A program made the translations under genes and the position numbers. From positions 1,922,001-1,986,000 of the forward strand of contig NZ_CP007141.1 in NCBI RefSeq assembly GCF_000816145.1: a DNA stretch of 64,000 nucleotides, given 5' to 3'. Of this stretch, positions 17,350-33,958 are shown one piece after another. How positions within the stretch are numbered: the stretch's first letter is position 1; each line of letters begins with the position of its first letter. A model generated the notes under the pieces. The model was not told where the DNA came from and made no database searches. It worked only from the letters and a program-made list of their open reading frames with translations. This DNA comes from Pseudothermotoga hypogea DSM 11164 = NBRC 106472 (GTDB lineage: Bacteria; Thermotogota; Thermotogae; Thermotogales; DSM-5069).

Positions 17350-17368
17350 GACGATCCCTCCAAAAGAA

Positions 17369-17398: not shown

Positions 17399-17424
17399 CT
17401 CCAGGTCTCTACCACACCGATTCA

Positions 17425-17546: not shown

Positions 17547-17864
17547 ATGGTTTTGATCTACACCACGTTCCCGACCAAGGATGACTGCCTGAGGGTTTGC
17601 AAGCAACTACTCGAAGAAAGAAAGATCGCATGTTTCAACGCTTTCCAGATTCAATCTGGATACTGGTGGCAGGACAAGATCGTGGAAGATCAGGAGTGGG
17701 CAGCGATCCTTAAGACCGACAAGTTCAAAGAGGACGAAGTCTTCGAAGCTTTGAAAAAGCTTCATCCGTACACGACACCGGCGATCATCTCAATCGAAGC
17801 GAAAAAAGTTGACACGCAGTATCTCAGCTGGCTCGTTTCGACCATTTCATCCCAGCAAACTTAG
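17547..17864 (+). CDS. cutA: CutA1 divalent-cation tolerance protein
   Basis: A 105-residue trimeric ferredoxin-like-fold protein of the CutA1 family, linked in Escherichia coli to copper tolerance but of unsettled biochemical role. Typical blocks are YTTFPTKDDCLRVCKQLLEERKIACFNAF, QSGYWWQDKIVEDQEWAAILKT and LHPYTTPAIISIEAKKVDTQYLSWL. The ATG at 17547 follows GGAGGT by 6 nt; a longer in-frame start lacks support. The 3' end overlaps the convergent hydrolase gene by 18 nt, leaving no room for a separate terminator. Confidence 0.95.
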   Translation: MVLIYTTFPTKDDCLRVCKQLLEERKIACFNAFQIQSGYWWQDKIVEDQEWAAILKTDKFKEDEVFEALKKLHPYTTPAIISIEAKKVDTQYLSWLVSTISSQQT

Positions 17865-18638
17865 ATGAGCCATCACGAGGTTCAAGATCGTTCTCGGTTT
17901 CTCGACCACCACGGCATGACCTGAATCTGGAACGCAAACGAGGTTCGCAGCCTTTATGGACGCAGCGATCTCGTGTGAGAAACGTGGTGGCTTGATTCGA
18001 TCGTGCTCGGCACACACAACGAGTGTGGGACAATTGATCGATGGAAGTTTCTCGACCAGAGGTTTTTGTTCCATCTGGAGGAAAGAATCGAGCAGCATCA
18101 CGGCCCCGTCGTAGTTGAAATTCTGCATCCTCGAGACGATTGTGTTCAACAGATCCGGATGCGCGTCCAAGAAAGCCTCGCTGTACACGTCGGTCAGCCA
18201 ACTCAGAACGAACTTGGTAGGATCCTTCGTCTCTGCGCCCATTCTCCAGAGTAAAGCATGATTTCGGATGTACGGTGTCACGCGCGCGGTGGCGGTTATG
18301 ATCACGAGGCTTTCGACCATCTCGGGATGCTCGGCGGCGAAGAGCATTCCAACTTCTCCGCCGTAAGATGTGCCAACGAGGTGCAGTTTGTTTATTTTCA
18401 GAGCGTCACACAACTCCTTCAAATCTTGAACGTGCTTTTCGAAAGAACATTCCGCATTTGAAGACGTCCACTGGCACCTGAAGTTGTGAAGGAGCACTGA
18501 ATATCGATCTTTAAGATCTTTCAACAAGGAGTCCCAGCTTTTCATATTCATGAAAATACCGTTTAGGAGTGCGACAACGCTTCCTCGACCCGGGTGAAAT
18601 TCGTAATCGATCTCGACACCATCCGAAGTTTTGAACAT
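17847..18638 (-). CDS. Alpha/beta hydrolase, soluble
   Basis: A 263-residue single-domain alpha/beta hydrolase. Nucleophile elbow G-T-S-Y-G-G, acid in VVCAEHDRIK and histidine in PDSGHAVVVEKP form a complete triad; the oxyanion-hole strand reads VVALLNGIF. No signal peptide. The ATG at 18638 has GAGGTGA upstream and lies 10 nt after the FabH-like stop, making it the last gene of the 16-gene run. Esterase, thioesterase, lactonase or C-C hydrolase activity are all possible; substrate unknown. A second hydrolase of the same fold is fused to LivM two genes upstream. Confidence 0.85.
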   Translation of the reverse strand: MFKTSDGVEIDYEFHPGRGSVVALLNGIFMNMKSWDSLLKDLKDRYSVLLHNFRCQWTSSNAECSFEKHVQDLKELCDALKINKLHLVGTSYGGEVGMLFAAEHPEMVESLVIITATARVTPYIRNHALLWRMGAETKDPTKFVLSWLTDVYSEAFLDAHPDLLNTIVSRMQNFNYDGAVMLLDSFLQMEQKPLVEKLPSINCPTLVVCAEHDRIKPPRFSHEIAASIKAANLVCVPDSGHAVVVEKPRTILNLVMAHLSLLG

Positions 18639-18648
18639 GCCCTTCACC

Positions 18649-19632
18649 TCACACTCTGAACGCCACAGCCACCTGTTGATAACCAACACCCGAGGTGAGG
18701 AAGATGATAACTTTGCCCTCGAGGTCGTTGAGTTTTCCCTCATCGAAAGCATCGTCGTACGCCATATAAACGCAGGCAGATCCGGTGTAACCGTATTTAT
18801 GCATGATCATGTGCGCTTTTTCCTCTGCTAAGCCCATCGTTTCCATGACTTTCTGTATGGTCTTCTTTCGAACCTGAGTGAAAAAGATCATGCCTATTTC
18901 GTCTTTCGAGAAGTTGCATTTCTCCATGAGCCGGTTGAGCAACAAGGGCCAGCCTTCTTCGTTCACGGTCGCTGGGTACGCCGCGCGCAGATCGAGCTTG
19001 TGAAGTCCTCTTTCAAAACCTTGAAGATTCATCGTGCCTGCTCCCATGTAGATGCCCCAGTTGTACCACCAGCTACCATCGCACCTTGCGACGCTGCCGA
19101 GATAACCCGGTTCATCTGAGGCCGTCAGGATGAGTGCACCGGCACCGTCCGAAAACAGCGCTTCCCAGGAGTACTTCCAGCTCAAGAACTTCGTCATCGC
19201 GTACACTCCGATCACGAGCACATTTTTATAATCGCCGAGCGCTATGTAACGGGATGCGATGTCCAAGAGCAATGCGCCGTTTGCACAGGAGGCGTTAACG
19301 TTGAACGCCAGAGGTTCGGCTTTGTGCGCACCGATCAGATACTGTACTCTCGCCGCATCGGGTGGTGAAATGGCTTCGGGTGTGTCCGTGCCCACTATGA
19401 TCAGGTCGATCTCTTCAGGTTTCATGTTGATCCTCGCCAGTGCGCGCTTGGCGGCTTCGGCAGCCATGTAGGTCGGGGTTTCTTCTTCATTCGAGAGGCG
19501 TCGATGGTTGATACCGATCTGTTCTGTGAAGTAGGGATCGATGGTGAAATGGACGAGTCTTTCGAACTCTTGATTCGTCATGATCTTGCTCGGAGCGTAG
19601 AGACCAGAAGAGATTATCTTTGCGTACTTCAT
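18649..19632 (-). CDS. 3-oxoacyl-ACP synthase III (FabH)-like protein lacking catalytic His/Asn
   Basis: A 327-residue thiolase-fold protein of the FabH/KAS III type. The nucleophilic cysteine is C116 in NASCANGALL, and LFSDGAGALIL is conserved. The expected H-Q-A-N motif reads T252-Q-V-R and the G-N-T motif reads G281-Y282-T, so the His and Asn needed for decarboxylative Claisen condensation are absent. It may be an acyl-transferring or thiolase-like variant, or non-catalytic. It follows the LivM-hydrolase fusion with a 4-nt overlap and precedes the free hydrolase, tying it to the transport system. Confidence 0.8.
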   Translation of the reverse strand: MKYAKIISSGLYAPSKIMTNQEFERLVHFTIDPYFTEQIGINHRRLSNEEETPTYMAAEAAKRALARINMKPEEIDLIIVGTDTPEAISPPDAARVQYLIGAHKAEPLAFNVNASCANGALLLDIASRYIALGDYKNVLVIGVYAMTKFLSWKYSWEALFSDGAGALILTASDEPGYLGSVARCDGSWWYNWGIYMGAGTMNLQGFERGLHKLDLRAAYPATVNEEGWPLLLNRLMEKCNFSKDEIGMIFFTQVRKKTIQKVMETMGLAEEKAHMIMHKYGYTGSACVYMAYDDAFDEGKLNDLEGKVIIFLTSGVGYQQVAVAFRV

Positions 19633-21335
19633 GTTCCAACCTCCTTCAGAAAAGGTTCTATCCTCCTCAAAAAATCCTCAGTCGCTTCGACGAACGGCGT
19701 GTGGCCAACGTTGTTGAGAATAACGAGCTGGGCTTTCAACGCTCTTCGAGTTTTTTCCATCTGCTCATGCGTGAGCAACGGGTCCATGTCGCCCCACACC
19801 AGTAGCGTCTTCACACGGTAATTCTCTGTTTGACCGGTAAGGTCAAATTTACCGAGTTCTTCAGCGTGTGCGTAGATTGCTTTTGGATTCATCTTCAATG
19901 CATCGTCCACCAGTTGCTCGACGAATTTTCTGTCTTTCACATTCCTGAGCAAACCGTACAGCGATCTTCTCAGCACGGATCTGTTCCTTTTGTACAGCTC
20001 AAGATAGGGTAAATTCTCCGCGGGTGTGGGTAGACCATCGATCGGGCACGGATCGACCAAGATCAAACCCTTGAGCAAGTCTGGACGTTTCAAAGCCAGT
20101 TTCATACCTATCGCTCCACCGAGTGAGTGTGCAAGGACGATGATATCTTTCAGCTGGAGCTTTTCGATGAACTCTTCTACGGCCTTTACATAGTTGTCCA
20201 GCGTTGGAATGGTCCTGTCGGAAAAACCGAAATTGGGAAGATCGAGTGCGATCGTTTTGAAATTCGAGATTCTGCCGAGGATCGGCTTGAACCATCTGAA
20301 AGAGCCAAAGTTTCCATGGATGAGTATCAATGGTTTTCCCTCTCCCGATTCGACGTAGTGCAAACGTGCAAGGGATGTTTGGACGAACTTACCCTCAGGT
20401 TTTCCGATCCTTCTCTTGAGCCAGACGATGGGTAATTCTGCCCACCTCAACCAGAAGTTCATCGCATGGTAGGCGATGCCACGCGGCATGAACAAGACCG
20501 TGAGAATGAGTATCGCTCCAAAGATGATCGAAAGAGAAAAGCCACTCCTGCTGAAGAAGAAAGGAAGGATGGTGTAAAGCGTCGCACCAAAGAAGGGTCC
20601 GATCTCCAAAGCCAGACCCCCGATGACCACCATGGCGAGCAGGTCCAAAGATTTACCCAGCCCGAACAGGCTCGGGGCTATGTAGCCGATCGTGTGGGCA
20701 TAGAGTGCTCCAGCAAGCGCTGCTAAGGCCGATCCAAAGCTGAACGCGATGACCTTGTGGTAAGTTAGATGCACGCCAAAAATGCGTGCTACCAGTTCGT
20801 TCTCCCTCATGGCCGCAAGCGCCCTTCCGGTCTTACCTCTTACGAGGAGACGGAAAAAGTAGAAACATACCAGCAAAAGCAAAAGGTTCACGTAGTAACT
20901 CGTTGTGTCGCTTCCGAACAGCTTGATGTTCCTCAAGCCTATGTGTCCACCTGTCAACGCTTGCCAGGCCCCGAACAACTGCTCGATGGCGACGACGAAA
21001 CCCATCGTCACTATGGCCAGATAAAAGCCTTTGAGTCTCAAAGCGGGAAAACCCAGAGCCATGCCGACAACGGCGCCGAAAACGATGGCGATCAGTACGG
21101 AAATCGGTATGGGCACAGAGAAACGTTGTACCAAGATCGCGGAAGTGTACGCACCAACACTCATGAACGCCGCATGGCCTATCGAAATCTGCCCGGCATA
21201 ACCCATGATCACGTTCAAACCCATCGCAGCGATCGAGTAGATGAAAGTCAGGTTCAGCAGAGTCAGGACGAAACCACTAACTGACGGCAAGAAAGGTACC
21301 GAGAACAGAATCAAAAGCAAGAGCCATCTCATCAC
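19629..21335 (-). CDS. Fusion of LivM-type ABC permease and alpha/beta hydrolase
   Basis: One 568-residue reading frame. Residues 1-295 are a complete branched-chain-amino-acid-type permease of the LivM family (GLNVIMGYAGQISIGHAAFMSVGAY at 39-63, the EAA-like LAAMRENELVARIFGV, and IGGLALEIGPFFGATLY). After a basic linker (298-318) residues 319-568 are an alpha/beta hydrolase: oxyanion IHG at 339-341, nucleophile S404 in AHSLGG, acid D516 or D518 (WGDMDPL) and H545 (NVGHTPF). The family permease normally ends near residue 295-330 with no enzyme attached. The hydrolase should hang on the cytoplasmic side and act on the imported solute (inference). Start GTG at 21335; overlaps follow on both sides. 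Confidence 0.9.
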   Translation of the reverse strand: MMRWLLLLILFSVPFLPSVSGFVLTLLNLTFIYSIAAMGLNVIMGYAGQISIGHAAFMSVGAYTSAILVQRFSVPIPISVLIAIVFGAVVGMALGFPALRLKGFYLAIVTMGFVVAIEQLFGAWQALTGGHIGLRNIKLFGSDTTSYYVNLLLLLVCFYFFRLLVRGKTGRALAAMRENELVARIFGVHLTYHKVIAFSFGSALAALAGALYAHTIGYIAPSLFGLGKSLDLLAMVVIGGLALEIGPFFGATLYTILPFFFSRSGFSLSIIFGAILILTVLFMPRGIAYHAMNFWLRWAELPIVWLKRRIGKPEGKFVQTSLARLHYVESGEGKPLILIHGNFGSFRWFKPILGRISNFKTIALDLPNFGFSDRTIPTLDNYVKAVEEFIEKLQLKDIIVLAHSLGGAIGMKLALKRPDLLKGLILVDPCPIDGLPTPAENLPYLELYKRNRSVLRRSLYGLLRNVKDRKFVEQLVDDALKMNPKAIYAHAEELGKFDLTGQTENYRVKTLLVWGDMDPLLTHEQMEKTRRALKAQLVILNNVGHTPFVEATEDFLRRIEPFLKEVGT

Positions 21336-22214
21336 TCACACTCTCCTGATTTCTTCGCTGCCGAACAGTCCCTGTGGTCTCACCAACAGTATGCCAACGA
21401 TGATGGCCAGAGAGAGCGTCGTTTTCAGCTCGTTGCTGATGTAACCACCGATGAGATTCTCTATCACACCCAGCGCAAGACCACCACACAGTGCACCAAA
21501 AAGGCTGTCGAACCCTCCGAGCACCGCAGCTGTGAAACCCTGTATTTGATAGTAGATCATCATCGTCGGAGAAACGTACGTCCTCGGAGCGCCGAGAACG
21601 GCGACCATCGTTCCGATAGCAGTTCCAACCATCCAAGACCAAGAGATCACCTTGTTGGGGTCGATACCCATCAGCTGGGCAGCCTTTTCGTTCTCAGAGA
21701 CGGCGCGAATCGCTATACCAACTTTGGTGAACCTGTAGAGCAGAAACATTAGAAAAGACACGGCGGCGAGCACGGCGAACAAGAGCAAGTCCTGTCTTCT
21801 GAAAACGACTATGCCGAAATCACCTCTGAAGATGAGGGGCCTGCCAGATATCAATTCGGGCAACGATTTGTACTGCGTTCCCCATATCTGTGTCGCCAAC
21901 CCCTCTAAGATCATGAGCAAACCAAAGGTCACTATCAACATCGATCCATGGGAAAGCTTGCGCAGGGGCCTCAGGGTGAACCGTTCCACAGCGTATCCGA
22001 ACAGCATGCTCACAAGCAGAGTCAGAACGAGGGCCGACCAAGCTCCCAGACCCAGAGAAACGAAGGTGTAGGTGACGTACGCCATGAACATTGCCATGTT
22101 ACCGTACGCGAAATTCATCAACCCCGTTACTTTGAATATGAGCACTATACCCATGGCTGCGAGAGAATAAAAACTTCCCGTTGAGAGACCGAGGATCAAC
22201 CTGTTCAGAAACAC
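21336..22214 (-). CDS. Branched-chain amino acid-type ABC transporter permease (LivH family)
   Basis: A 292-residue polytopic membrane protein. GLSTGSFYSLAAMGIVLIFKVTGLMNFAYGNMAMFMAYVTY near the N-terminus, the coupling region IRAVSENEKAAQLMGIDPNKVISWSWMVGTAIG and AVLGGFDSLFGALCGGLALGVIENL are typical of LivH. It is the first permease of importer 1 and abuts the LivM-hydrolase fusion and livF with 0-1 nt spacing. The Liv family carries amino acids but also amides, urea, aromatic acids and short-chain acids, so the ligand cannot be read from family alone. Confidence 0.9.
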   Translation of the reverse strand: MFLNRLILGLSTGSFYSLAAMGIVLIFKVTGLMNFAYGNMAMFMAYVTYTFVSLGLGAWSALVLTLLVSMLFGYAVERFTLRPLRKLSHGSMLIVTFGLLMILEGLATQIWGTQYKSLPELISGRPLIFRGDFGIVVFRRQDLLLFAVLAAVSFLMFLLYRFTKVGIAIRAVSENEKAAQLMGIDPNKVISWSWMVGTAIGTMVAVLGAPRTYVSPTMMIYYQIQGFTAAVLGGFDSLFGALCGGLALGVIENLIGGYISNELKTTLSLAIIVGILLVRPQGLFGSEEIRRV

Positions 22215-22916
22215 TCATCTTCCCCCCAGATAGCTTTCAACCACGGAGCTGTCTTTCATGAGTCGTTCAGAAGGGCCTTCCATGACGAGTCTCCCAGTTT
22301 GAAGAACATAACCGTAATGTGAAATCTTTAGGGCAGCGTAGGCGCTCTGTTCAACCAGGAGAATCGTTACACCTGATTCGTTTATCTTCTTTATAGCCCT
22401 CATGATCTCGCTCACAAGGTTTGGTGCCAAGCCCGTCGAAGGTTCGTCGAGCATGAGCAACTTGGGTTTGGCCATCAGCGACCTCGCAATGGCGAGCATC
22501 TGCCGTTCTCCACCCGAAAGTGTGCCCGCCCTCTGTTTCAGTCTCTCTTTGAGCCTTGGGAAGAGAGTAAAAACGAGGTCGAAATCCTTGGATAGGTCTT
22601 CTCTTCTCAAATACGCTCCGGCCTGCAGATTCTCCAGGACCGTCATCTTTTGAAAGACCATCCTATTGTCGGGACACAGGACCAAACCGCGTCGAACGAT
22701 CTCGTGCGCCTCGAGTTTGTCTATTCTCTCGCCTTCGAAAAGTATTTCACCAGCCACGATTTTGTTCAATCCCACGATGGCATGCAGAAGCGACGTCTTT
22801 CCTGATCCGTTCGCTCCGAGGATCGTCGTTATGGAACTTTTCTCGACCTTCAAAGAAACATCTTTCACGGCCACCACGGGGCCGTAACTGACCGTCACGT
22901 TTCTGAGTTCAAGCAC
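22215..22916 (-). CDS. ABC transporter ATP-binding protein (LivF family), importer 1
   Basis: A 233-residue ABC ATPase of the LivF type. Walker A GANGSGKTSLL, signature LSGGERQMLAIARSLMAKPKLLMLDEPSTGLAPNLV (with Walker B) and the switch histidine-equivalent region ILLVEQSAYAALKISHYGYVLQTGRLV are visible; the Q-loop VEQ is typical for LivF. The GTG at 22916 has GGGAGAGG upstream and overlaps livG by 8 nt; a longer reading would begin inside livG without a ribosome site. Confidence 0.92.
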   Translation of the reverse strand: MLELRNVTVSYGPVVAVKDVSLKVEKSSITTILGANGSGKTSLLHAIVGLNKIVAGEILFEGERIDKLEAHEIVRRGLVLCPDNRMVFQKMTVLENLQAGAYLRREDLSKDFDLVFTLFPRLKERLKQRAGTLSGGERQMLAIARSLMAKPKLLMLDEPSTGLAPNLVSEIMRAIKKINESGVTILLVEQSAYAALKISHYGYVLQTGRLVMEGPSERLMKDSSVVESYLGGR

Positions 22917-23679
22917 TGTTGACCTCTCCCAAATAGGCACTGATCACTTTTGGATCTTTTCGCACCTCTTCGGGCTTACCCTCACTGATCTTCTTTCCAA
23001 AGTCCATCACGGTCACAACATCGGAGATGTCCATCACCACACGCATATCGTGCTCTATCAACAACACCGTTATACCCATTTCATCTCTTATTCGCCGTAC
23101 GATGCTCACGAGCTGGTTCGTCTCCGCTTCGTTGAGTCCAGCCGCGGGTTCGTCGAGCAACAAAATCTTGGGTTTCGCCATCAACGCGCGGCCTATCTCG
23201 ACGAGTTTTTGGTGAAAATAAGGGATACTGCCCGCGTAGCTCAACAACCTGCTCTTCAGACCAAGAAAGTCCGCCACGTTGAGAGCCTCTCTGTACATTT
23301 CGTAGTTTTCAAGTGACCTTCGCTTAGTCACAATCAAGTCTTTCATCAATCCTCCAGCGATCCTGTGATGGTACCCCACGTAGAAATTCTCGAGCACCGT
23401 CAAGTACTTGAAAACGACGACGTTCTGGAACGTTCTTGCAACACCGTATGAAATCACCTGGTGCGGGGCAACGTGCGTCAGTTCAACCCCATCGAGCACG
23501 ATGGTTCCAGAGTGAATCTTGACCACCCGCGTTATCGCGTTGAAGACGGTCGTCTTTCCGGCACCGTTTGGACCTATGAGAGAATGAATTTCTCCTTTTT
23601 CCACTCTCATCGAGAAGTTATCCACAGCCACAAGACCACCGAAGCGAACAATCAGTGAATCGATGTTTAAGAGTGCCAA
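22909..23679 (-). CDS. ABC transporter ATP-binding protein (LivG family), importer 1
   Basis: A 256-residue LivG-type ATPase. Walker A GPNGAGKTTVFNAI, the LivG-specific insertion after the Q-loop (ARTFQNVVVFKYLTVLENFYVGYHH), PKILLLDEPAAGLNEAETNQLV and VLLIEHDMRVVMDISDVVTVMDFGKKISEG are seen. The signature motif is degenerate (SYAGSIPYFHQKLVEIGRALMAKP instead of LSGGQ), which reduces similarity to canonical LivG but keeps the Q and the following helix; LivF carries an intact LSGGE. Positioned first after the substrate-binding protein and a hairpin. Confidence 0.9.
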   Translation of the reverse strand: MALLNIDSLIVRFGGLVAVDNFSMRVEKGEIHSLIGPNGAGKTTVFNAITRVVKIHSGTIVLDGVELTHVAPHQVISYGVARTFQNVVVFKYLTVLENFYVGYHHRIAGGLMKDLIVTKRRSLENYEMYREALNVADFLGLKSRLLSYAGSIPYFHQKLVEIGRALMAKPKILLLDEPAAGLNEAETNQLVSIVRRIRDEMGITVLLIEHDMRVVMDISDVVTVMDFGKKISEGKPEEVRKDPKVISAYLGEVNSA

Positions 23680-23699
23680 GTTTCACGCCCCCAGACAAA

Positions 23700-23722
23700 G
23701 AGGAGGGGAAGGTCCCCTCCTC
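23700..23722 (-). terminator. Intercistronic GC-rich hairpin after substrate-binding protein 1
   Basis: GAGGAGGGGA and TCCCCTCCTC form a perfect 10-bp stem with a 3-nt loop, including the first base of the stop codon of the upstream gene. A weak T-tract follows on the minus strand. Such hairpins at the 3' end of a binding-protein gene usually stabilise its mRNA or reduce read-through so that the binding protein outnumbers the permease (established for other ABC operons; inferred here). Confidence 0.65.
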
Positions 23723-24881
23723 AATCGAGTCCTATCAAATCCGTTACAGGTGTGAAGATGCCGTTCTCGATCTTCATGAAGTACATCGTCGATTTACCGC
23801 GCCTGAGACCTGGACCCCAGGTGATATCCTTGGCCAAGATTCCGTCCCAGTGATTGAACGTCTCGAGCGCCTCAACGAGTTTCTCTCTCGTCAGATCTGG
23901 CCCGGCTCTGACGAGACCTTCAACGAACACTTCGGCAGCGATGAATCCAGCCACCGCGTACGAGGACATGATCTGGTTCGGATAGCTCTCTTGGAATATC
24001 GCCACCGCCCTTTGATAGTCCCTCAGGAACTCCGGTCTGTCCGGGGTTGCCAACGGAACCCAGCCCGTCAGATAAACGCCTTCGGCATACTTACCTGCGA
24101 GGTTTATGAAACTGGGGTCAGCGTTGGCATAGGTTGTCACGATGTCAGCGTCCACCCCATAATCCTTCAACGTTTTGATCCACCTGACCGTGTCGGTGAG
24201 AAAACCGTAGATGACGATGGCATCCGGAGATACCTTCAAAACATCCACCGCGAGCGCACTGTAGTCTGTTTCGAGCGGGTTGTAAGCGATCTCGAGCGCG
24301 GGTTTCATACCGTACTTCTCGAGCCGCATCTTCACCGCCGCTAAACCTTCTTTACCGACATCGTTGGCCATGTAGATGACGCCTATCTTCTTCTTTTTCA
24401 AGTTTTCAACGAAGAACTTTGCGATCAACTGACCTTCAAGTGTGTAGTCGGGTTGAACTCCGAAGATGTAACGTTTTGGTGGCACCACGAGCAGGCTCGT
24501 TCCTGCACCTTGATAGACGAAGGGTACCTTGTTCTGCTCCAGATAATCCATCACCGCGAGACAACCGTAGGTGCCCAGTCCACCGACGATCGCGAAGACT
24601 TTGTCAGATTCCACTAATCTTTTGACCTCGACGACTGTCTTGGTTGGATTGAGCTGATCGTCCGCTATGATCAGTTCGATCTTCCTTCCGTAGACTCCGT
24701 TGTTCTTGTTGATCCAGTTGAAGTACGCCAGCATTCCTTTCGACATCTCTTGACCGATCACCGCATAAGGTCCCGACAGTGCTTGGAACGTTCCAACCAC
24801 GATCTTGTCTGGATAAACACCGACCTCTGCGAAGACGAAGAGCGCGACCGACAGTACCAGAACCACCAACAGTTTCTTCAC
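23721..24881 (-). CDS. Periplasmic substrate-binding protein, Liv type (importer 1)
   Basis: A 386-residue type I periplasmic binding protein. Signal peptide MKKLLVVLVLSVALFVFA without a lipobox, then IVVGTFQALSGPYAVIGQEMSKGMLAYFNWINKNNGVYGRKIELIIADDQLNPTKTVVEVKRLVESDKVFAIVGGLGT, the classic leucine/aliphatic-amide-binding lobe. The ligand is unknown. Encoded between fabG-like (24-nt gap) and livG, and followed by a GC hairpin. Confidence 0.9.
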   Translation of the reverse strand: MKKLLVVLVLSVALFVFAEVGVYPDKIVVGTFQALSGPYAVIGQEMSKGMLAYFNWINKNNGVYGRKIELIIADDQLNPTKTVVEVKRLVESDKVFAIVGGLGTYGCLAVMDYLEQNKVPFVYQGAGTSLLVVPPKRYIFGVQPDYTLEGQLIAKFFVENLKKKKIGVIYMANDVGKEGLAAVKMRLEKYGMKPALEIAYNPLETDYSALAVDVLKVSPDAIVIYGFLTDTVRWIKTLKDYGVDADIVTTYANADPSFINLAGKYAEGVYLTGWVPLATPDRPEFLRDYQRAVAIFQESYPNQIMSSYAVAGFIAAEVFVEGLVRAGPDLTREKLVEALETFNHWDGILAKDITWGPGLRRGKSTMYFMKIENGIFTPVTDLIGLD

Positions 24882-24905
24882 CGTACATCCCCCTCAGGGA
24901 AGATT

Positions 24906-25652: not shown

Positions 25653-25668
25653 ACGTAACCTCCCCTTT

Positions 25669-26379: not shown

Positions 26380-27089
26380 GCTTCCTCCCCAAGATAGGCA
26401 GTGATGACCTTAGGATCGTGTGCAACCTTTTCGTACGGTCCTTCCGCAATGATCTCACCACGATCCAGAACGATGACGCGGTCGGTCAACTGGCTTATCA
26501 CGCTCATGACGTGTTCGATCACACAAATTGTGATCTGCTTTTCTCTGAGGGATCTCACCAACTGGATAATCCTCTGCATCTCTTCGGAGTTCAACCCTGC
26601 CATGACCTCATCGAGTATCAAGAGTTTCGGTTGACAACCAAGCGCCCTTGCGATCTCGAGCTTCTTCAGCTCGAAAACCGTGAGCCTGTCCAAGCGCCTT
26701 TCAGGTTGGTCGAGCTCTACGAGCTCACATATCTTGCGTGCAGACTTGCGCGCCTCACGCAACGACTCACCTCTGGCGAAGAGGCACGATACCACGACGT
26801 TTTCGAATGCGGTGAAATCCCTCAAAGGTCTCACGAGCTGAAAGGTCCTCGCTATGCCCATGCGTGCGCGCAAGTGTGCGGGGACGAAGGTGATGTCTTT
26901 ATCTTCGAAACGAATGCGCCCCTCGGTGGGGTATAAAACACCAGATATGAGGTTGGTCAACGTCGTCTTACCGGCCCCGTTGGGACCTATTATACCGAGT
27001 ATCTCACCTTGGTTCACGTTCAAATCCACGGATTTGACGGCTACCAAACCCCCGAAGCTCTTCGTCAGTTTCTCCGTTCTCAAAAGCAC
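26376..27089 (-). CDS. ABC transporter ATP-binding protein (LivG family), importer 2
   Basis: A 237-residue LivG-type ATPase. Walker A GPNGAGKTTLTNLI, Q-loop region ARTFQLVRPLRDFTAFENVVV, and PKLLILDEVMAGLNSEEMQRII (Walker B). The signature is LTVFELKKLEIARAL, lacking the SGG of LSGGQ, a degeneration shared with LivG of importer 1. The product works with the adjacent LivF and the two permeases upstream. Confidence 0.9.
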   Translation of the reverse strand: MLLRTEKLTKSFGGLVAVKSVDLNVNQGEILGIIGPNGAGKTTLTNLISGVLYPTEGRIRFEDKDITFVPAHLRARMGIARTFQLVRPLRDFTAFENVVVSCLFARGESLREARKSARKICELVELDQPERRLDRLTVFELKKLEIARALGCQPKLLILDEVMAGLNSEEMQRIIQLVRSLREKQITICVIEHVMSVISQLTDRVIVLDRGEIIAEGPYEKVAHDPKVITAYLGEEA

Positions 27090-27102
27090 GGCACAGAACC
27101 TC

Positions 27103-28014
27103 CTATCGCTTCACCACAATCTTGTTGGCGATGGTTCCGTATATACCCCTTGGCAAGAACATGATCGTGAAGATGAGAATCAAACCATAAATTATCAGAT
27201 GCCCGTACGGCATGATGAGTTTGAGATATTCTGACGCCAAGCCGAGCACCACGGCCCCTATTATTGGACCGAGGGTAGAGTAGATTCCTCCAACGAGGGC
27301 CATTGACATCGGAAGGAGCAGAAAGTTGGCTGAGAAAGTGCTTTCAGGTTCAACGAAAGCATACTGCTGTGCGTAGAGTGCTCCGACAGCGCCCTGAATC
27401 GCCGATGTAAGCACGAAGACGAACAGAAGGTACTTGAAGATGTTCACTCCAGAACACTTTGCGGCGATCTCATCGTCCCTTATGGCATTGATCGCAAAGC
27501 GAATTCTTGTCCTTTGAAAAAGCTCAGAAATGAGGATCACTGTGAGCGCCACCGAGAGAACCAGCCAATAGATCTTGATCGAATCTCCTTTGAAGATCGA
27601 CTCGTAGAGGACTTTCCCCGCTGAACCACCGGTGAGATCGCTCAGGTTTCTCGCGAAGATCATGAAAACGCTGGAGAGCGCAAGCGTCGTTATGGCGAAG
27701 TAGATCTCTCTCAGTCTCAGTACGATCCAACCGAGTGCCAAAGCAACGAGAGCAGCGAACACCGCAGCAACGAGAATACTCCACAACGGATCGATAGAAA
27801 AGTCATCGACGGCAATGATCGAAGCGTAAGCACCGAGTCCGAAGAAACCAGCGATCCCGAACGAAAGCTGTCCTGTGCGGAGCATCATGTCCCAACTGAG
27901 AGCCAAAGACAGAAAAATCATTATCGAAGTGAGCACGTGAATCAGGTACGCACCCACGAAGAAAGGCAAAAGAAAGCAGAGAACACAAACAGCCAATATC
28001 ATGAAGTACTTCAT
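27103..28014 (-). CDS. ABC transporter permease (LivM family), importer 2
   Basis: A 303-residue polytopic permease. LSLALSWDMMLRTGQLSFGIAGFFGLGAYASII, the coupling segment INAIRDDEIAAKCSGVNIFKYLLFVFVLTSAIQGAVGALYAQ and PMSMALVGGIYSTLGPIIGAVVLGLASEYL are LivM hallmarks. The ATG at 28014 overlaps the LivH stop as ATGA and has an AGAAGG ribosome site; longer in-frame starts lie inside livH. It ends at the normal place, without the hydrolase seen in the importer 1 homologue. Confidence 0.9.
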   Translation of the reverse strand: MKYFMILAVCVLCFLLPFFVGAYLIHVLTSIMIFLSLALSWDMMLRTGQLSFGIAGFFGLGAYASIIAVDDFSIDPLWSILVAAVFAALVALALGWIVLRLREIYFAITTLALSSVFMIFARNLSDLTGGSAGKVLYESIFKGDSIKIYWLVLSVALTVILISELFQRTRIRFAINAIRDDEIAAKCSGVNIFKYLLFVFVLTSAIQGAVGALYAQQYAFVEPESTFSANFLLLPMSMALVGGIYSTLGPIIGAVVLGLASEYLKLIMPYGHLIIYGLILIFTIMFLPRGIYGTIANKIVVKR

Positions 28015-28925
28015 CCTTCTCGCCTCCCGAAGGCCCTGAACACGATCGCTGCTATGAGGACTACGAAGAAGACCAAGTCTGCCCATCCCGTGTAACCCGG
28101 TATGGACTTGACGAACTCTTCAGCGATGCCGAGTACTATCCCTGCGAGAACTATGCCTGGTAAGTTTCCCAAACCCGCCATCGCCGTCAAGCTGAAAGAT
28201 TTCATCGTAAATGGACCACCAACGTGCGGAAAGATTGAACTCCTGACGGACAACAGTGCACCAGCCAGCGCAACCAACCCAGCTGCGAGGCTGAACACAA
28301 AAGCGTAGACGAATTTGACGTTGATGCCCACAATCGCTGCACCCTTGGGGTTTTGTCCAACTGCGTAAGTCGCCTGCCCGAGCCGCGTCTTCTTCAAGAA
28401 CAACAACAATCCTGCGAGCACGAGCACCACTACGATTGTGTATATGAACTCATAGCCACCGACGTACACACCGAAGATGTTGACCGAGGTCGATGCGTAA
28501 GGCACGTAGATGTTTCTCGGTCTGGAAGTCCACCATATGTTGAAAGATTCAACCATGACTATGGAGACTCCGAAGGTGAGCAACAGGAGGTTGAGATGAT
28601 GAGTTTTCAAAGATCTCTCTATCACAAGCTTGTAGATCAAAAGACCAACCACCAAGAGAAGTGGTACTGTAAGCACGGGAGAAGACAGAGGATCCATCCC
28701 CCACTCGTTGAACAGAAGGTACGTCATGTAGAGCGACAACGTCAAGAACTCACCGTGAGCCAGGTTCAAGAGACCCACTATACCGAGTATGAGTGCGAGT
28801 GGAAGGGCGACCAAACCGTACAAGCTACCTCTCTGTACACCGTAGAAGAAAGCGTACGGTCTGAGCAAGGCGATGAGAAAAAGTGCTATGGCGAGAACTG
28901 CGTATCCAACGAAATTTTTCTTCAC
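28011..28925 (-). CDS. ABC transporter permease (LivH family), importer 2
   Basis: A 304-residue LivH-type permease: GVQRGSLYGLVALPLALILGIVGLLNLAHGEFLTLSLYMTYLLF, AVGQNPKGAAIVGINVKFVYAFVFSLAAGLVALAGALLSV and SLTAMAGLGNLPGIVLAGIVLGIAEEF. It follows the second substrate-binding protein after a 59-nt gap that holds a GC-rich hairpin, and overlaps LivM by 4 nt. Gene order here is SBP-H-M-G-F, against SBP-G-F-H-M in importer 1. Confidence 0.9.
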   Translation of the reverse strand: MKKNFVGYAVLAIALFLIALLRPYAFFYGVQRGSLYGLVALPLALILGIVGLLNLAHGEFLTLSLYMTYLLFNEWGMDPLSSPVLTVPLLLVVGLLIYKLVIERSLKTHHLNLLLLTFGVSIVMVESFNIWWTSRPRNIYVPYASTSVNIFGVYVGGYEFIYTIVVVLVLAGLLLFLKKTRLGQATYAVGQNPKGAAIVGINVKFVYAFVFSLAAGLVALAGALLSVRSSIFPHVGGPFTMKSFSLTAMAGLGNLPGIVLAGIVLGIAEEFVKSIPGYTGWADLVFFVVLIAAIVFRAFGRREG

Positions 28926-28955
28926 GCGCTTTCACCTCTTCTTGAAACAAATGAA

Positions 28956-28978
28956 CGGCTGGGCGTTCGGCCCAGCCG
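28956..28978 (-). terminator. Intercistronic hairpin after substrate-binding protein 2
   Basis: CGGCTGGGC and GCCCAGCCG form a perfect 9-bp stem with a 5-nt loop, 7 nt beyond the stop codon; a T-rich stretch (TTCATTTGTTTC) follows on the minus strand. Flanking ATGAACG/CGTTCAT can extend the pairing. Likely partial terminator or mRNA-stability element separating high binding-protein from lower permease expression. Confidence 0.65.
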
Positions 28979-28984
28979 CATCGT

Positions 28985-30211
28985 TCATTTGCCCGTCCAA
29001 CCCGGGAATGGATAGATCAGCTCGGCCGTTTGATATTCGAACGGCCAGATGACGTGCTGTACCCCGTTCTGCCACTGCAGTATCTTCTGAGCCCTGAATC
29101 CTTGGTTCTTTATGATCCTGCTTGGGGAGATCTTGAGCACGCCTCCTACAGGAGATTCATATTCGATCTCCCTCAGAGCTTTGATGATGGCGTCCTTGTC
29201 GAGTGAGCCAGCCTTCTTGATTCCCTCAACCAAGAACATGATATTCGTGTAGCCGAGCGGAGCAAAGTACGTCGCAGGTTCCTCGTTGAACTCTTTCACG
29301 TACGCGTCCCAGAAGTGCTTCGCGATCGCGCTGACATCTTTCAATGCCGGTGCCCACATACCGTAGAGTATGACACCGTGTGACAAAGGATTCTTACCGA
29401 AATCGGCAGGCCATCCCGGAGGTGCACCGACGAAGAGTTTTGGAGCGAAACCTATCTCCTTCGCTTGAATGAGGATGGGTATCGCATCGGCGTCGTAGCC
29501 AGCCCATATGAACAAATCTGGATTGTACTGCTTGGCCTGCATCAAGACTGCTCTGTAATCACCGCCTCCGAGTGCAACACTCTTGAAGGGGGCACCCCTG
29601 AGGTCTTTCATCAGTCCAGCCCAGACTCCGGTACCTTTCTTCGCGAGCTCGAACTCGTCTTGGTAGGATTTGAAGGAACTTGTTCCAAAGGCACCTTCCT
29701 CGTAAGCTATGAATATCTTCTCGATCTTCACCTGCGGATACTTCTGAGTGATCGCCCTCCAACCGTGTGCGTAGCTTTCTCCCTGCAGATAGTCCCAAGG
29801 ATGCAAATGGAAGTACCAGTCTGCGTCCGGACCGACCGCTTCTTCACATCTGTACGACGCCGCTCCAATCCATACCGTGATCTTCTGGTACTTCTTCAAT
29901 ATGGGTATCTGTGCCAGGTGCACACCGCTGGACATCCCACCGACGAAGAAGTCCACTTTTTCAACGGTCGCGAGTCGGTCGATCGCGGCGGCACCTTTCT
30001 CCGGCTTCATCTCATCATCGACGATGAACAATTCCACGGGCATACCGAGAACTCCGCCCGCTGCGTTGATTTCCTTGACGGCCAGTTTCATGGCGTTGGC
30101 CGCCTGTCTGCCCGTGATGTCAGATAGAGGCAAAACCGCACCTATTTTGATGGTTGATGCGAAGCCTAATGCCACGACCACAACCGCGAACGCCACGAAC
30201 AACCTCTTCAT
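28985..30211 (-). CDS. Periplasmic substrate-binding protein, Liv/amide type (importer 2)
   Basis: A 408-residue type I periplasmic binding protein with signal peptide MKRLFVAFAVVVVALGFAS and the lobe IKIGAVLPLSDITGRQAANAMKLAVKEINAAGGVLGMPVELFIVDDEMKPEKGAAAIDRLATVEKVDFFVGGMSSG. It is divergent from the importer 1 binding protein and contains a YRCEEAVGPDADWYFHLHPWDY segment. It is the first transport gene after the CoA-transferase (16-nt gap). Ligand unknown. Confidence 0.9.
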   Translation of the reverse strand: MKRLFVAFAVVVVALGFASTIKIGAVLPLSDITGRQAANAMKLAVKEINAAGGVLGMPVELFIVDDEMKPEKGAAAIDRLATVEKVDFFVGGMSSGVHLAQIPILKKYQKITVWIGAASYRCEEAVGPDADWYFHLHPWDYLQGESYAHGWRAITQKYPQVKIEKIFIAYEEGAFGTSSFKSYQDEFELAKKGTGVWAGLMKDLRGAPFKSVALGGGDYRAVLMQAKQYNPDLFIWAGYDADAIPILIQAKEIGFAPKLFVGAPPGWPADFGKNPLSHGVILYGMWAPALKDVSAIAKHFWDAYVKEFNEEPATYFAPLGYTNIMFLVEGIKKAGSLDKDAIIKALREIEYESPVGGVLKISPSRIIKNQGFRAQKILQWQNGVQHVIWPFEYQTAELIYPFPGWTGK

Positions 30212-30227
30212 ACTCTCACTCCTTTCA

Positions 30228-31535
30228 TCAGATTAGACCCATCTTTCTCGCTTCCGAAGTTAACACGTCTCTGAAATCTGGATGAGCTATGGATATCAAC
30301 TGGAGTGTCCTCTCCCTGATGGTTTTACCCCTCACGTGCGCCACGCCCCACTCTGTGACAACGTAATCGAGTTCCTGTCTGGGTACTGTCACGGGAGAAC
30401 CGAGTGGTAGTAGAGGCACAATGGTCGATACTGTTCCGTTCTTAGCGGTGGACCTGAGTGCGATGATACCTTTACCACCTTTGCTTTTCACAGCACCACG
30501 GTGCGTGTCCAGCTGCCCACCGGTGCCACTGTAATGCTGTGTGCCCAAAGCTTCCGAACAAACGTTACCCGTCAAGTCTACCATGAGCGCGGTGTTTATA
30601 CTGACCATCTTCTCGTTCTGGGCTACCACATAAGGATCGTTCACGTACTTGCCCCGAAGGAACATGATCGAAGGGTTATCGTCGATGAAGCTGTAGAGTC
30701 TCTTGGTTCCAAAGGCGAACGTACAGACGAACTTGCCTTTCCACAGAGTTTTCTTCTTGTTCGTTATCACCCCCATTTCAAAGAGATCGATCATGGACTC
30801 GGTGAACATCTCTGTATGCACACCGAGATCCTTCTTGCTGTGTAAAAGCTTTGCGACGGCGTTTGGGATACCACCTATTCCGATCTGTATCGTGGATCCA
30901 TCCTCTATAAGTTCGCTAACGTACTGCGCGATCTTCGACTCGACATCCGCTGGTTCAACCAGCTCGGCTTCCGGTAGATCGTAGTCAACCTCGATCAAGT
31001 AGTCGACCTCGCTGATGTGCACGTGGGTATCGCCATGCGTTCTTGGGGCTTTCGGATTGACTTCGAGCACGACTTTCTTTGCCTTCTCGATCACGTCCTT
31101 CTCGTAAACAACAGAAGCAGACAGTGTAAGGAAACCGTTTTTGTCCATGGGTGAAGCGACACCAACGAAGATGTCAACGTCTCTGCTGTCTAACAAATTC
31201 GTTCCCGCCTGGTGCAGATTGTTCGGAACGTAACTCACCGTTCCATACCTGTTCTTCACAGCTTCCCTGTTCGAGGCACCGAAGTACCAAGAAGCGTTTT
31301 GAAAGCTCTTGCTGTATTCTTCTCTCATGTAGAAGGGATAACTCTCCATGTTCAAACACGTGAACACGGTTACGTTCTCGACTCTGTCAGCGACTCTGTG
31401 AAGGTTCCTCAGAAAGAGCTTGGGTTCCATCGGAGTCATACCGACGACGATCGTTGAGTTACTCTGAACAAGTTCCAGAACCTTATCGATGTCCACCAAC
31501 TTCTTTTTGTAAACTTCTTCCCACTTCACAACCAT
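30228..31535 (-). CDS. Acetyl-CoA hydrolase/transferase-family CoA-transferase
   Basis: A 435-residue type I CoA-transferase of the acetyl-CoA hydrolase / 4-hydroxybutyrate CoA-transferase family, which moves CoA between acetyl- or another acyl-CoA and a free carboxylate. The oxyanion loop GIGGIPNAV (219-227) and the catalytic glutamate E242 in HTEMFTESMIDL are present; the C-terminus includes YVVTEWGVAHVRGKTIRERTLQLISIAHPDFRD. It lies 6 nt after the FabH-like gene and 16 nt before the importer 2 binding protein, so it probably activates the imported acid. Confidence 0.9.
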   Translation of the reverse strand: MVVKWEEVYKKKLVDIDKVLELVQSNSTIVVGMTPMEPKLFLRNLHRVADRVENVTVFTCLNMESYPFYMREEYSKSFQNASWYFGASNREAVKNRYGTVSYVPNNLHQAGTNLLDSRDVDIFVGVASPMDKNGFLTLSASVVYEKDVIEKAKKVVLEVNPKAPRTHGDTHVHISEVDYLIEVDYDLPEAELVEPADVESKIAQYVSELIEDGSTIQIGIGGIPNAVAKLLHSKKDLGVHTEMFTESMIDLFEMGVITNKKKTLWKGKFVCTFAFGTKRLYSFIDDNPSIMFLRGKYVNDPYVVAQNEKMVSINTALMVDLTGNVCSEALGTQHYSGTGGQLDTHRGAVKSKGGKGIIALRSTAKNGTVSTIVPLLPLGSPVTVPRQELDYVVTEWGVAHVRGKTIRERTLQLISIAHPDFRDVLTSEARKMGLI

Positions 31536-31541
31536 TCCTCC

Positions 31542-32573
31542 TCACCAACTTATGGGTTCTCTGATCCTTCCCCACCTCACGACGGCGGCGTTCCAGGTCC
31601 AGCCCACGCCCGCCCCCACGAGAACGACCACATCACCGTCTTTGATCCTACCAAGCTTGAGACCTTCCTGGAGAGAAAAGACCTGATCGTTCTGACCCAT
31701 GTGACCGTAGTCTTCGAGGTAGAAAGATTGATCCTCCCTCAAACCCAGTTGCGTTAGAACTTCCAAGTGTGCCGATCTCTTGAAGTGCAGTATGGCGAGG
31801 TAGGATATGTCTTTCCTTGAAAGACCACTCTTTCTCAGAGCATCGTCGATCACGAAGTAGAAGTTGTTCAGAGTGACCCTGTTCAGCTTTTCTTTGAAAG
31901 CTTCAGGATCGACCAGGTGGAAATAGTATTCATTGAGGTCTTCTGTCTTGATTGGCCACCTCTTGGTTCCCCCCACCGGCACGATACAGTCTTCGGCGAA
32001 CGATCCATCGACGATGCTCGAAACACCCAGCACAACGTTCGCACCGTGGTTCTTTTTCAGCACCAGTGCCGCTCCACTGGCGCCTATGTCGAACATGAAA
32101 GAAGTCGGTTTGTACTTGTGGTTGACCAGATCGACGTTGCGATACCCGCTCACGAGCAAGACCGTGTTCACGTTCTTCTCGCTGAGCATAAGCGATCTGG
32201 CCACCTGAAGCCCAACGATCATCGAACCGCACATGGCTTCCATGTCGAAAGCCCACGCCCTCGTCGCGTTGATCTCGTGAGCGACCTTCGTGCACGCAAG
32301 CCAGCAGGGATAATCTTTGTGCTGCGCACCGTTCCAGATGACCACGTCGATCTCGCTTGGATCGACCCCTGCGTTCTTTATGGCCTCTCTCGCAGCCATA
32401 ACACCCATATGGCTCGTCGTGTCTTCTTCGCCTGGAACGTATTTGCCCTTAACACCGAATTTCTCAACGATGACTGCTTCGTCGATTCCAGTGAGCGAGG
32501 CCAGCTCCTTGGCCGTCATATAGCGCTTTGGAAGATAGGTCCCGATACCGGCTATACCTACGTGATCTTGCAT
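31542..32573 (-). CDS. 3-oxoacyl-ACP synthase III-like (FabH-type) condensing enzyme
   Basis: A 343-residue thiolase-fold enzyme, first gene of the 16-gene run. Nucleophile C115 (MEAMCGSM), H263 (AILHFKRSAH) in place of the FabH HQAN histidine, and H291 (YGHMGQND) in place of the GNT asparagine; GHxGQxD is seen in a non-fatty-acid branch of FabH relatives. The C-terminus VLVGAGVGWTWNAAVVRW is typical. The ATG at 32573 has AGGAGGGACC upstream; a longer reading would cross the operator. It could condense, cleave or acyl-transfer an acyl-CoA; sequence does not decide. Confidence 0.85.
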   Translation of the reverse strand: MQDHVGIAGIGTYLPKRYMTAKELASLTGIDEAVIVEKFGVKGKYVPGEEDTTSHMGVMAAREAIKNAGVDPSEIDVVIWNGAQHKDYPCWLACTKVAHEINATRAWAFDMEAMCGSMIVGLQVARSLMLSEKNVNTVLLVSGYRNVDLVNHKYKPTSFMFDIGASGAALVLKKNHGANVVLGVSSIVDGSFAEDCIVPVGGTKRWPIKTEDLNEYYFHLVDPEAFKEKLNRVTLNNFYFVIDDALRKSGLSRKDISYLAILHFKRSAHLEVLTQLGLREDQSFYLEDYGHMGQNDQVFSLQEGLKLGRIKDGDVVVLVGAGVGWTWNAAVVRWGRIREPISW

Positions 32574-32611
32574 TTTGGTCCCTCCTGTAAACTGAACCAC
32601 CATTCAATCTG

Positions 32612-32659
32612 ATACATGATTCATCATGTATGATACCAGATTGTGAAACAAAAATGCAA
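32612..32659 (-). promoter_or_regulatory. Promoter and TetR-type operator of the 16-gene run
   Basis: On the minus strand TTGCAT (32654-32659) and TATCAT (32630-32635) are spaced by 18 nt. A perfect 20-bp palindrome, half-site ATACATGAT with a TC centre (32612-32631), overlaps the last two bases of the -10 and covers the start point near 32623. A repressor there would block initiation. Start codon of the FabH-like gene is 50 nt downstream. The tandem-TetR gene ends 85 nt upstream of the promoter. Confidence 0.8.
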
Positions 32660-32743
32660 CACTCGGAAAAGTCCTTTAATGATGTTGCCAATTTGTGGCT
32701 GGCGGCAGTTTCGAAATAGGCTCCGATATCTTCGCCGTACTCT

Positions 32744-33958
32744 CTATTTCTTTCTGTTGCTTTCTTTTTCTCCTTTTTTTTGTATTCCTTTGAGGAGATA
32801 CTCACTGAGGAGTGAAAGATAATCTTTGATCTGGTCCGGAGAGGTTTTGCTGTAGACAACGAGGTCTTCGCCCATGAAGTGGCCAATACCCATGAGTCCG
32901 ATGGCAAGGTTCTCAGGCTTGAGGGGCTTTATCATCTTCAACTCGATCGCCCTGTTCAACGGAGGAAGGTAACTGGCGAAGATCTTGTCGTAATAGTTAC
33001 GTGAAATGTTCGGATTGAAGAACTCAGCCTGTCTGACAACCAAGTACATGTTCGAATGATTCAAGAAAAACCTTAAGAATGCGTTGTAACCTGCTATTTC
33101 GGCATCACGTCTGTCAGTGAAGTTCTTTATCACGCTCGCTATCGTGAGCCTCAGATTTCTGTTTGTGGACATCACGAGTTCTTCGAGGATCGACTCTTTG
33201 CTCTCGAAGTACACATAGAAAGTACCCGCAGCGACACCGGCAGATTTGGTGATATCACTTATCATCGTATTTCGATAGCCGTACTTCCCAAAGAGTCTCT
33301 CCGCTGCTTGGAGCAACTTCGCTTTCGTCGAGCTGGTCTCGACCGCCAACGGTTTCACATCGACGTTGAAAACTCGTTCGTCCAGCACGTGATCGTTTGG
33401 ATCCACACCGTTCACGATGAATTCGGTGAAGTCTCTCACCGTGGATTCTTCGATCACTCTTTCACCTGAGAGCGACTTGAAGATGCCCGCGAACCTGATC
33501 GGACCGGTGACGAACCAACCAGCTACCCTCACTTCTTTTTCATCTGCGTTCGGTAAGAGTTTCTCAATGACTCTCGATCTCAGTATCTGTTCCAGTTTTC
33601 TTCTCAGGTTCCTTTTCAGATAGACGGCTTCGTGCAATATCCGAAAATGCAGAAAGTGGTTGGAAAAGAATTTGGCATACGATCTGATGAAGCTTTCCAC
33701 GATCCTGTACGAATCGCTGTCGTCGATGTTGTTCATACCATCGGAGAACAGTTCAAAGGCTTCTTCTATCAACTTTTCATAGACTGCATCCTTGCTGCTG
33801 AAATACTGGTAGAACGTGGACGGCTTGACGTTGGCCCTTCTGGAGATCATCGGGATAGAAACGCCGTGATAGCCACGCGTAGCAAAGAGTTCCAGGGCGG
33901 ATCTGAGCAGATCTGAGAAAGTCTTCTTTCCATCGGATCGCTTTGGGTCCCTTCTCAA
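32744..33958 (-). CDS. Tandem TetR-type regulator (two TetR units in one chain)
   Basis: A 404-residue protein with two complete TetR units. Unit 1: helix-turn-helix about residues 34-55 (ISRRANVKPSTFYQYFSSKDAVYEKL), ligand/dimer domain to about 195. Unit 2: helix-turn-helix about 234-253 (ITKSAGVAAGTFYVYFESKESILEEL), ligand domain to 385, then a Lys-rich tail. TetR proteins are normally about 200 residues and dimeric, so one chain could mimic a dimer. TTG start at 33958 with AGGGGG 7 nt upstream. It reads toward the 16-gene run and is its likely repressor and its own (shared operator core upstream). Confidence 0.9.
   Translation of the reverse strand: MRRDPKRSDGKKTFSDLLRSALELFATRGYHGVSIPMISRRANVKPSTFYQYFSSKDAVYEKLIEEAFELFSDGMNNIDDSDSYRIVESFIRSYAKFFSNHFLHFRILHEAVYLKRNLRRKLEQILRSRVIEKLLPNADEKEVRVAGWFVTGPIRFAGIFKSLSGERVIEESTVRDFTEFIVNGVDPNDHVLDERVFNVDVKPLAVETSSTKAKLLQAAERLFGKYGYRNTMISDITKSAGVAAGTFYVYFESKESILEELVMSTNRNLRLTIASVIKNFTDRRDAEIAGYNAFLRFFLNHSNMYLVVRQAEFFNPNISRNYYDKIFASYLPPLNRAIELKMIKPLKPENLAIGLMGIGHFMGEDLVVYSKTSPDQIKDYLSLLSEYLLKGIQKKGEKESNRKK

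Follow-up and report, generated by a model that had tools for sequence, protein, structure and literature searches.

A minus-strand operon of 15 genes in Pseudothermotoga hypogea DSM 11164, preceded by a gene for a tandem (two-domain) TetR-family regulator, probably belongs, on balance, to a horizontally spread, repressor-controlled catabolic regulon for acid or ester import, coenzyme A (CoA) loading, and cleavage to acetyl-CoA. The operon lies in a 64,000-nucleotide window (contig NZ_CP007141.1, positions 1,922,001 to 1,986,000) of a genome consisting of 2,165,416 bases in one contig. Its core, composed of FabH1, a CoA-transferase, an NAD-type FabG, an alpha/beta hydrolase, a Liv importer, and the tandem TetR, recurred in Thermotogota, Spirochaetota, and Holophagaceae; Bacillota shared it in part. 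A literature search on the gene set, tandem TetR regulators, and 3-ketoacyl-acyl carrier protein (ACP) synthase III (KAS III) enzymes in degradation found nothing on this system, and a paper on Kosmotoga FabH was set aside as dealing with a fatty-acid synthesis cluster. The gene set looks like a pathway not previously described.

Gene Content and Organization

The operon (17847-32573 of the window) began with fabH1 (start 32573), ended with abh1 (end 17847), and had inter-gene gaps of -32 to +59 nt, in the order fabH1, CoA-transferase, sbp1, livH, livM, livG, livF, fabG, sbp2, livG, livF, livH, livM-hydrolase fusion, fabH2, and abh1. Two start codons were corrected, that of fabH1 to the ATG at 32573 (with GGAGG upstream) and that of abh1 to the ATG at 18638. 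The tandem-TetR gene was located upstream of fabH1 on the same strand across a 170-nt gap. A preliminary description of this DNA had counted 16 tightly spaced genes on one strand; content, strand, and order stood, while the count became 15 genes plus the upstream tetR. Its double TetR was borne out by two TetR_N domains within one gene. The features, in window positions, were:

33978-33991, minus strand: putative operator copy TGAAAACTGATTCA upstream of tetR; relatives L034, L036, L037, and L074 retain it
32744-33958, minus strand: tandem TetR-family regulator, 404 aa, two TetR_N domains
32605-32643, no strand assigned: inverted-repeat putative operator region preceding fabH1, with TGATACATGATTCA at 32610-32623, plus strand
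31542-32573, minus strand: FabH1, KAS III fold, family NF005308/PRK06840, Cys115-His263-His291 (profile score and invariant residues)
30228-31535, minus strand: CoA-transferase, acyl-CoA:acetate type, 4-hydroxybutyrate CoA-transferase family (domains, alignment, Glu242)
28985-30211, minus strand: sbp1, Liv-1 substrate-binding protein (SBP; Peripla_BP_6)
28955-28979, minus strand: hairpin after sbp1
28011-28925, minus strand: Liv-1 permease LivH (order and homology)
27103-28014, minus strand: Liv-1 permease LivM
26376-27089, minus strand: Liv-1 ATPase LivG
25669-26379, minus strand: Liv-1 ATPase LivF
24906-25652, minus strand: FabG-like short-chain dehydrogenase, Asp36, NAD-type (TIGR01830 and conserved residues)
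23721-24881, minus strand: sbp2, Liv-2 SBP (Peripla_BP_6)
23700-23722, minus strand: hairpin after sbp2
22909-23679, minus strand: Liv-2 ATPase LivG
22215-22940, minus strand: Liv-2 ATPase LivF
21336-22214, minus strand: Liv-2 permease LivH
19629-21335, minus strand: LivM permease with fused C-terminal alpha/beta hydrolase, abh2 (both domains in one open frame)
18649-19632, minus strand: FabH2, KAS III fold, Cys116, Thr252 for His, Tyr282 for Asn
17847-18638, minus strand: abh1, free alpha/beta hydrolase (Abhydrolase_1)

Conservation Across Phyla

Co-occurrence was counted in non-redundant loci whose sequence extended at least 6.5 kb to either side of fabH1. Phyla were assigned manually, based on record titles and search sets, and the 11-kb counting window misses fabH2 and abh1 in Pseudothermotoga, whose operon is longer. 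A separate conserved neighborhood for each gene was looked for and was not seen: fabH1 and a CoA-transferase gene stood together in 32 of 33 Thermotogota, 21 of 23 Spirochaetota, and 16 of 18 Bacillota loci. The Thermotogota loci also contained a Liv SBP (32), fabG (30), tetR (27), and a thiolase (23). The Spirochaetota loci contained tetR and a Liv SBP (22 each), a hydrolase (21), and fabH2 (20), and the Bacillota loci contained a Liv SBP (13), a hydrolase (12), and fabG (10).

Of 82 good Thermotogota genomes, 48 had FabH1-like genes (E ≤ 1e-20); a few of these matches were just 24-27% identical, so that the true orthologue count is slightly lower. The FabH1 family was present in 29 of 299 sampled Bacillota genomes. 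Scanning named genomes yielded 149 confirmed relatives, the 80 best of which belonged to Thermotogota, Spirochaetota, Holophagaceae, and, in a few cases, Bacillota metagenome-assembled genomes (MAGs). Among named records the closest, a Pseudothermotoga MAG, encoded a 93% identical FabH1. The gene order was shared within Pseudothermotoga. Seven further Thermotogaceae genomes had the same gene order as far as the sequence was taken (G058 and G065 were traced to the end), and another, G057, was without importer 1 and had a thiolase in its place.

Comparison between genomes established the gene set, its modularity, the candidate operator element, the tandem TetR, and the active-site residues. With gene set, order, regulator, and operator conserved across phyla, the earlier proposal of one functional unit was supported. 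The core and operator sites were kept among relatives; the fixed 16-gene set was not, because the importers swap. That unrelated genes happen to be stacked in one direction can hardly be credited: Thermotogota genomes are compact and have long co-directional runs, but the same genes were found in four phyla, and regulator and operator in three, with changed order and flanks, which already contradicts this explanation.

A FabH1 tree (short search, simple model) interleaved the phyla, with at least four forced label changes for Thermotogota and four for Bacillota. Two Bacillota FabH1 sequences shared one clade with those of Pseudothermotoga and of a close relative (100% SH-aLRT support). This interleaving suggests that the operon spread by horizontal transfer, the regulator and operator apparently moving along in three of four groups.

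Variants of the cluster were observed. A Spirochaetales MAG (L082:10001-13300) had two adjacent FabH1-type genes flanking a short-chain dehydrogenase/reductase (SDR) gene in this operon. Four Bacillota loci (L183, L185, L187, L189) had an oligoendopeptidase F-like gene, identified by reading, directly after fabH1-CoA-transferase-fabH2. A MAG named Brachyspira murdochii (L114) carried the Spirochaete form of the cluster, and its species name looks doubtful.

Importer Modules

Both Liv importers were complete, each with an SBP, two permeases, and two ATPases. As ATP-binding cassette (ABC) importers with SBPs, they point to uptake and not export. The two had been described as fixed parts of one set, but they proved to be interchangeable modules, with usually one or the other beside the core elsewhere: 14 Thermotogota loci contained only the sbp2-type importer, 11 only the sbp1-type, and seven both. 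In Spirochaetota sbp1 was 52-60% identical. A few Bacillota loci (L184, L186, L191) had no Liv set and an SSF-like symporter (by reading, no profile search) near fabH1 and the CoA-transferase gene. Against PRK15404, a model for branched-chain amino acid transport, the SBPs scored 76 and 60 bits (cut-off 477).

In the fusion protein a single open frame encoded both BPD_transp_2 (residues 23-260) and Abhydrolase_1 (334-551), and the fusion recurred in other phyla. The hydrolase was usually fused to LivM in sbp2-type loci (Thermotogota, Spirochaetota, Bacillota) and usually a free gene in sbp1-type loci.

Regulation

Two helix-turn-helix (HTH) domains were found in 75 of 77 homologous regulators from related loci. 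Between tetR and fabH1 in Spirochaetota and Holophagaceae, the element TGAGAGATGATTCA was near-identical and often present twice, set inside an imperfect 23-bp palindrome. It is the probable operator, to which the tandem TetR would bind. In P. hypogea, TGATACATGATTCA formed part of a longer inverted repeat directly upstream of fabH1. This operator region overlapped the -10 (TATCAT) of a candidate promoter, TTGCAT-18-TATCAT at 32659-32630, reading left. The regulator resembles other TetR-family members in having TetR_N HTH domains and a palindromic predicted operator beside its own gene. The whole genome contained four exact operator matches, two of them at this operon; the remaining two (758.7 and 1148.3 kb) were at the 3' end of, or inside, unrelated genes and were taken as chance.

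Because the operator pattern was derived partly from the same loci later counted, its enrichment is descriptive: 46 occurrences in 28.3 kb of promoter regions vs. 18 in 768 kb elsewhere for Thermotogota (about 70-fold denser), 62 in 23.3 kb vs. 17 in 743 kb for Spirochaetota (about 115-fold denser), and 15 in 3.0 kb vs. 0 in 113 kb for Holophagaceae. The reversed-pattern control gave no occurrences in the promoter regions of any of these three groups. A variant element, TTGAGAACCTATTCATC (and TTGAGAACATATTCA), was seen in the tetR-fabH1 gap of two Bacillota MAGs (L115, L134), outside the strict pattern count.

A consensus promoter and terminator scan returned nothing above shuffled sequences (10 promoter-like sites, 12.1 expected), with the exception of two GC-rich hairpins, one after each SBP gene (sbp1/livH1 and sbp2/livG2). 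In the relatives checked a stem-loop also directly followed the SBP stop codon, with one weak exception (L046). Given this conserved position, the hairpins look like the usual control of SBP-versus-permease expression and not the end of the operon. TetR control, as first proposed, agrees with a regulator and putative operator conserved across phyla. The single promoter placed at 32.6 kb fared less evenly: gene packing, the candidate promoter, and the conserved operator favor it, the consensus scan does not, and tetR falls outside the unit with its own operator copy.

CoA-Transferase, FabG, Hydrolases, and Thiolase

The CoA-transferase contained PF02550 and PF13336 (AcetylCoA_hydro domains) over cut-off and aligned to 4-hydroxybutyrate CoA-transferases, with Glu242 in the motif GVHTEM invariant in 72 of 72 sequences. 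It fell below the cut-off of the butyryl-CoA:acetate CoA-transferase model TIGR03948 (296.5 vs. 674.8 bits). FabG had Asp36 in 61 of 61 sequences and a conserved catalytic Ser/Tyr154/Lys158. An Asp at such a position in SDRs favors NAD; the invariant Asp36 therefore suits NAD and oxidation, and points to an NAD-type rather than NADPH-dependent enzyme.

The Ser91-Asp213-His241 triad of abh1 was conserved in 35 of 35 sequences, and the Ser94-Asp208-His235 triad of the abh2 part was conserved in an alignment with about six gapped rows. An AtoB-like thiolase was present in the operon of many relatives, often between the CoA-transferase and importer genes. In P. hypogea an 84% identical thiolase gene was found at 276285-277484 of the genome, adjoining atoD and atoA (two-subunit 3-oxoacid CoA-transferase). 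The canonical thiolase is, by this comparison, a predicted part of the pathway in relatives and is encoded elsewhere here. The ato-like cluster as a whole (genome about 275001-278830; L235:8939-12830) contained AtoA, AtoD, the AtoB-like thiolase, and, by reading, an AtoE-like transporter split over two open frames that overlap, which may reflect a frameshift.

Oligomers of 3-hydroxybutyrate are the simplest candidate substrate. If 3-hydroxybutyrate or polyhydroxybutyrate (PHB)-derived oligomers were imported, the hydrolase would cleave the oligoester, the CoA-transferase would form 3-hydroxybutyryl-CoA, FabG acetoacetyl-CoA, and thiolase two acetyl-CoA. Among NCBIfam hydrolase models and PDB chains the fused hydrolase was closest to intracellular short-chain polyhydroxyalkanoate (PHA) depolymerases (NF050089; 8ynv), FabG also scored with acetoacetyl-CoA reductases, the AtoB-like thiolase occurs in relatives' operons, and genes for a MaoC-type hydratase and an acyl-CoA dehydrogenase stood near some Bacillota loci. 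The hydrolases are nevertheless far under the NF050089 cut-off of 300 bits (fused 101, free 76), a search of this genome for an extracellular PHB esterase of family PF10503 found none, and the scheme leaves no job for FabH1 and FabH2, the most conserved parts. As the full account of the operon it is rather unlikely.

FabH1 and FabH2

FabH1 contained PF08545 and PF08541 over cut-off, as expected of the KAS III fold, and scored 482 bits (cut-off 315) against NF005308 (PRK06840, 3-oxoacyl-ACP synthase), a name that is an annotation without tested function found. Cys115, His263, and His291 were invariant in 93 of 93 homologues, as were Q84, G293, Q294, N295, D296, and Q297. Because His291 aligned to the Asn of the FabH triad, FabH1 departs from the Cys-His-Asn triad of KAS III and reads Cys-His-His, as in KAS I/II. 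The best PDB matches of its AlphaFold2 model (pLDDT 85) were FabHs, with TM scores of 0.80-0.84 by query length, and the model also resembled BioZ, PqsD, and PqsC. FabH2 likewise departed from the triad, with Cys116-Thr252-Tyr282 in 30 of 30 sequences across phyla. Asp83 of FabH2 may parallel the catalytic Glu of 3-hydroxy-3-methylglutaryl-CoA synthase, a lead only.

It is quite possible, if somewhat short of probable, that FabH1 (Cys-His-His) and FabH2 (Cys-Thr-Tyr) represent a new catabolic branch of KAS III. Acting singly or as a PqsBC-like pair, they would take a diketo- or oxo-acid imported by the hydrolase-bearing permease and either cleave it (retro-Claisen) or transfer its acyl groups. 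The hypothesis of a catabolic, C-C-cleaving FabH pair is the novel claim of this analysis.

A related alternative takes the substrate to be a beta-diketone or a 3,5-dioxo or 3-hydroxy-5-oxo acid of phloroglucinol, triacetate, or lactone type, with two successive C-C cleavages, for which the FabH pair and thiolase would account for one each. It would give FabH1/FabH2 and thiolase separate jobs and would suit the unusually polar invariant site of FabH1 (Q84/K86/D87/H291/Q294/N295/D296); the classical route for acids of these types likewise involves CoA transfer, an SDR, and thiolysis. The operon, though, contained no ring reductase or cyclohydrolase. BKACE is the family of the triacetate-cleaving enzyme, and no BKACE-family triacetate lyase was in the cluster; the sole BKACE gene (genome 1103117-1103920, 380 bits) was 0.85 Mb from the operon with no obvious pathway partners nearby. 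Such a substrate is quite unlikely.

In a biosynthetic set, FabH1/FabH2 would instead condense acyl-CoAs to a polyketide-, pyrone-, or lipid-type product from starter acids supplied by the importers. Biosynthetic KAS III enzymes with altered triads (PqsC, CerJ, ChlB3) were among the matches, but there was no ACP, malonyltransferase, export, or tailoring gene, and the NAD-type FabG, up to two importers, and the AtoB-type thiolase of relatives also speak against synthesis, which is highly unlikely.

Proposed Pathway and Significance

Importers, CoA-transferase, NAD-type dehydrogenase, AtoB-type thiolase, hydrolases, and the lack of an ACP fit breakdown better than synthesis, and the earlier proposal of acid import followed by CoA activation was supported. 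We infer the direction, step order, CoA donor, and inducer as follows. One or two Liv-type importers would take up a small carboxylic acid, either as such or in the form of an ester, oligoester, lactone, or diketone, and the permease-fused or free hydrolase would open it at the inner face of the membrane. The CoA-transferase would shift CoA from acetyl-CoA to the freed acid, and FabG would oxidize 3-hydroxyacyl-CoA to 3-oxoacyl-CoA. Thiolase (from the operon in relatives, from the ato cluster here) and the two modified KAS III enzymes would split the product to acetyl-CoA. The tandem TetR would repress the operon and itself through the TGAnAnnTGATTCA sites until released by a pathway intermediate, probably an acyl-CoA. 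The most likely substrate class is a hydroxy-, oxo-, or diketo-acid delivered as an ester, oligoester, or lactone.

Several points weigh against this catabolic assignment. FabH-fold enzymes usually build C-C bonds, and FabG scores as a 3-oxoacyl-ACP reductase (TIGR01830, 318.8 bits, cut-off 297.75). Structure matches of the SBPs, with identities of about 20%, pointed in several directions, to binders of pyroglutamate, leucine, urea, and hydroxybenzoate. The operator and tandem TetR were largely absent from Bacillota loci, where other regulator-like genes adjoin.

Because the pathway has spread among largely anaerobic bacteria, accompanied in most groups by a dedicated repressor and DNA site, many of them probably live on a common compound with which they have never been associated. 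Should the FabH pair prove to act in breakdown, KAS III proteins could no longer all be assigned to fatty-acid synthesis by default, and the operator, SBP ligand, and tandem TetR inducer would be a handle for finding the compound. In the permease-hydrolase fusion, the coupling of import to processing can be put to the test.

Flanking Genes

Genes for FtsH, an FlK-like thioesterase, a radical SAM protein, CutA, KsgA, and MaoC were rejected as operon members because the flanking genes change between genera. The FlK-like (fluoroacetyl-CoA thioesterase family) hotdog protein was encoded at 35428-35832, between the FtsH and radical SAM genes. Adjoining the operon, positions 14696-17415 encoded an FAD oxidoreductase (DAO and BFD-like 2Fe-2S domains) and a pyridine-nucleotide oxidoreductase, a pair resembling a glycerol-3-phosphate oxidation pair.

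Comparison With Known Systems

Since 3-hydroxybutyrate fits most parts but not the FabH pair, and a diketo or dioxo acid fits the pair without specific support, the operon was filed as a variant of acid-catabolic operons with a FabH pair without explained role. Intracellular PHB or 3-hydroxybutyrate degradation shares the hydrolase, activation, NAD-linked oxidation, and thiolysis; the operon differs in having no depolymerase match over cut-off, an extra FabH pair, and a TetR operator system. The atoDAEB system for acetoacetate and short-chain fatty acid degradation shares a CoA-transferase, acid uptake, and thiolase (AtoB type in relatives), whereas here a single-chain 4-hydroxybutyrate-family CoA-transferase, ABC importers, FabG, two FabH-like enzymes, and hydrolases are found. 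Liv/HAAT importers of the branched-chain amino acid family likewise consist of an SBP, two permeases, and two ATPases, a complete set of which is present here twice; here one LivM has a fused alpha/beta hydrolase and the neighbors are acid-pathway genes. Compared with KAS III/FabH enzymes, including PqsC, PqsD, and BioZ, the fold and nucleophilic Cys are kept, but FabH1 has His for the triad Asn, FabH2 is without the His and Asn, and both genes lie beside importer and CoA-transferase genes instead of fatty-acid synthesis genes.

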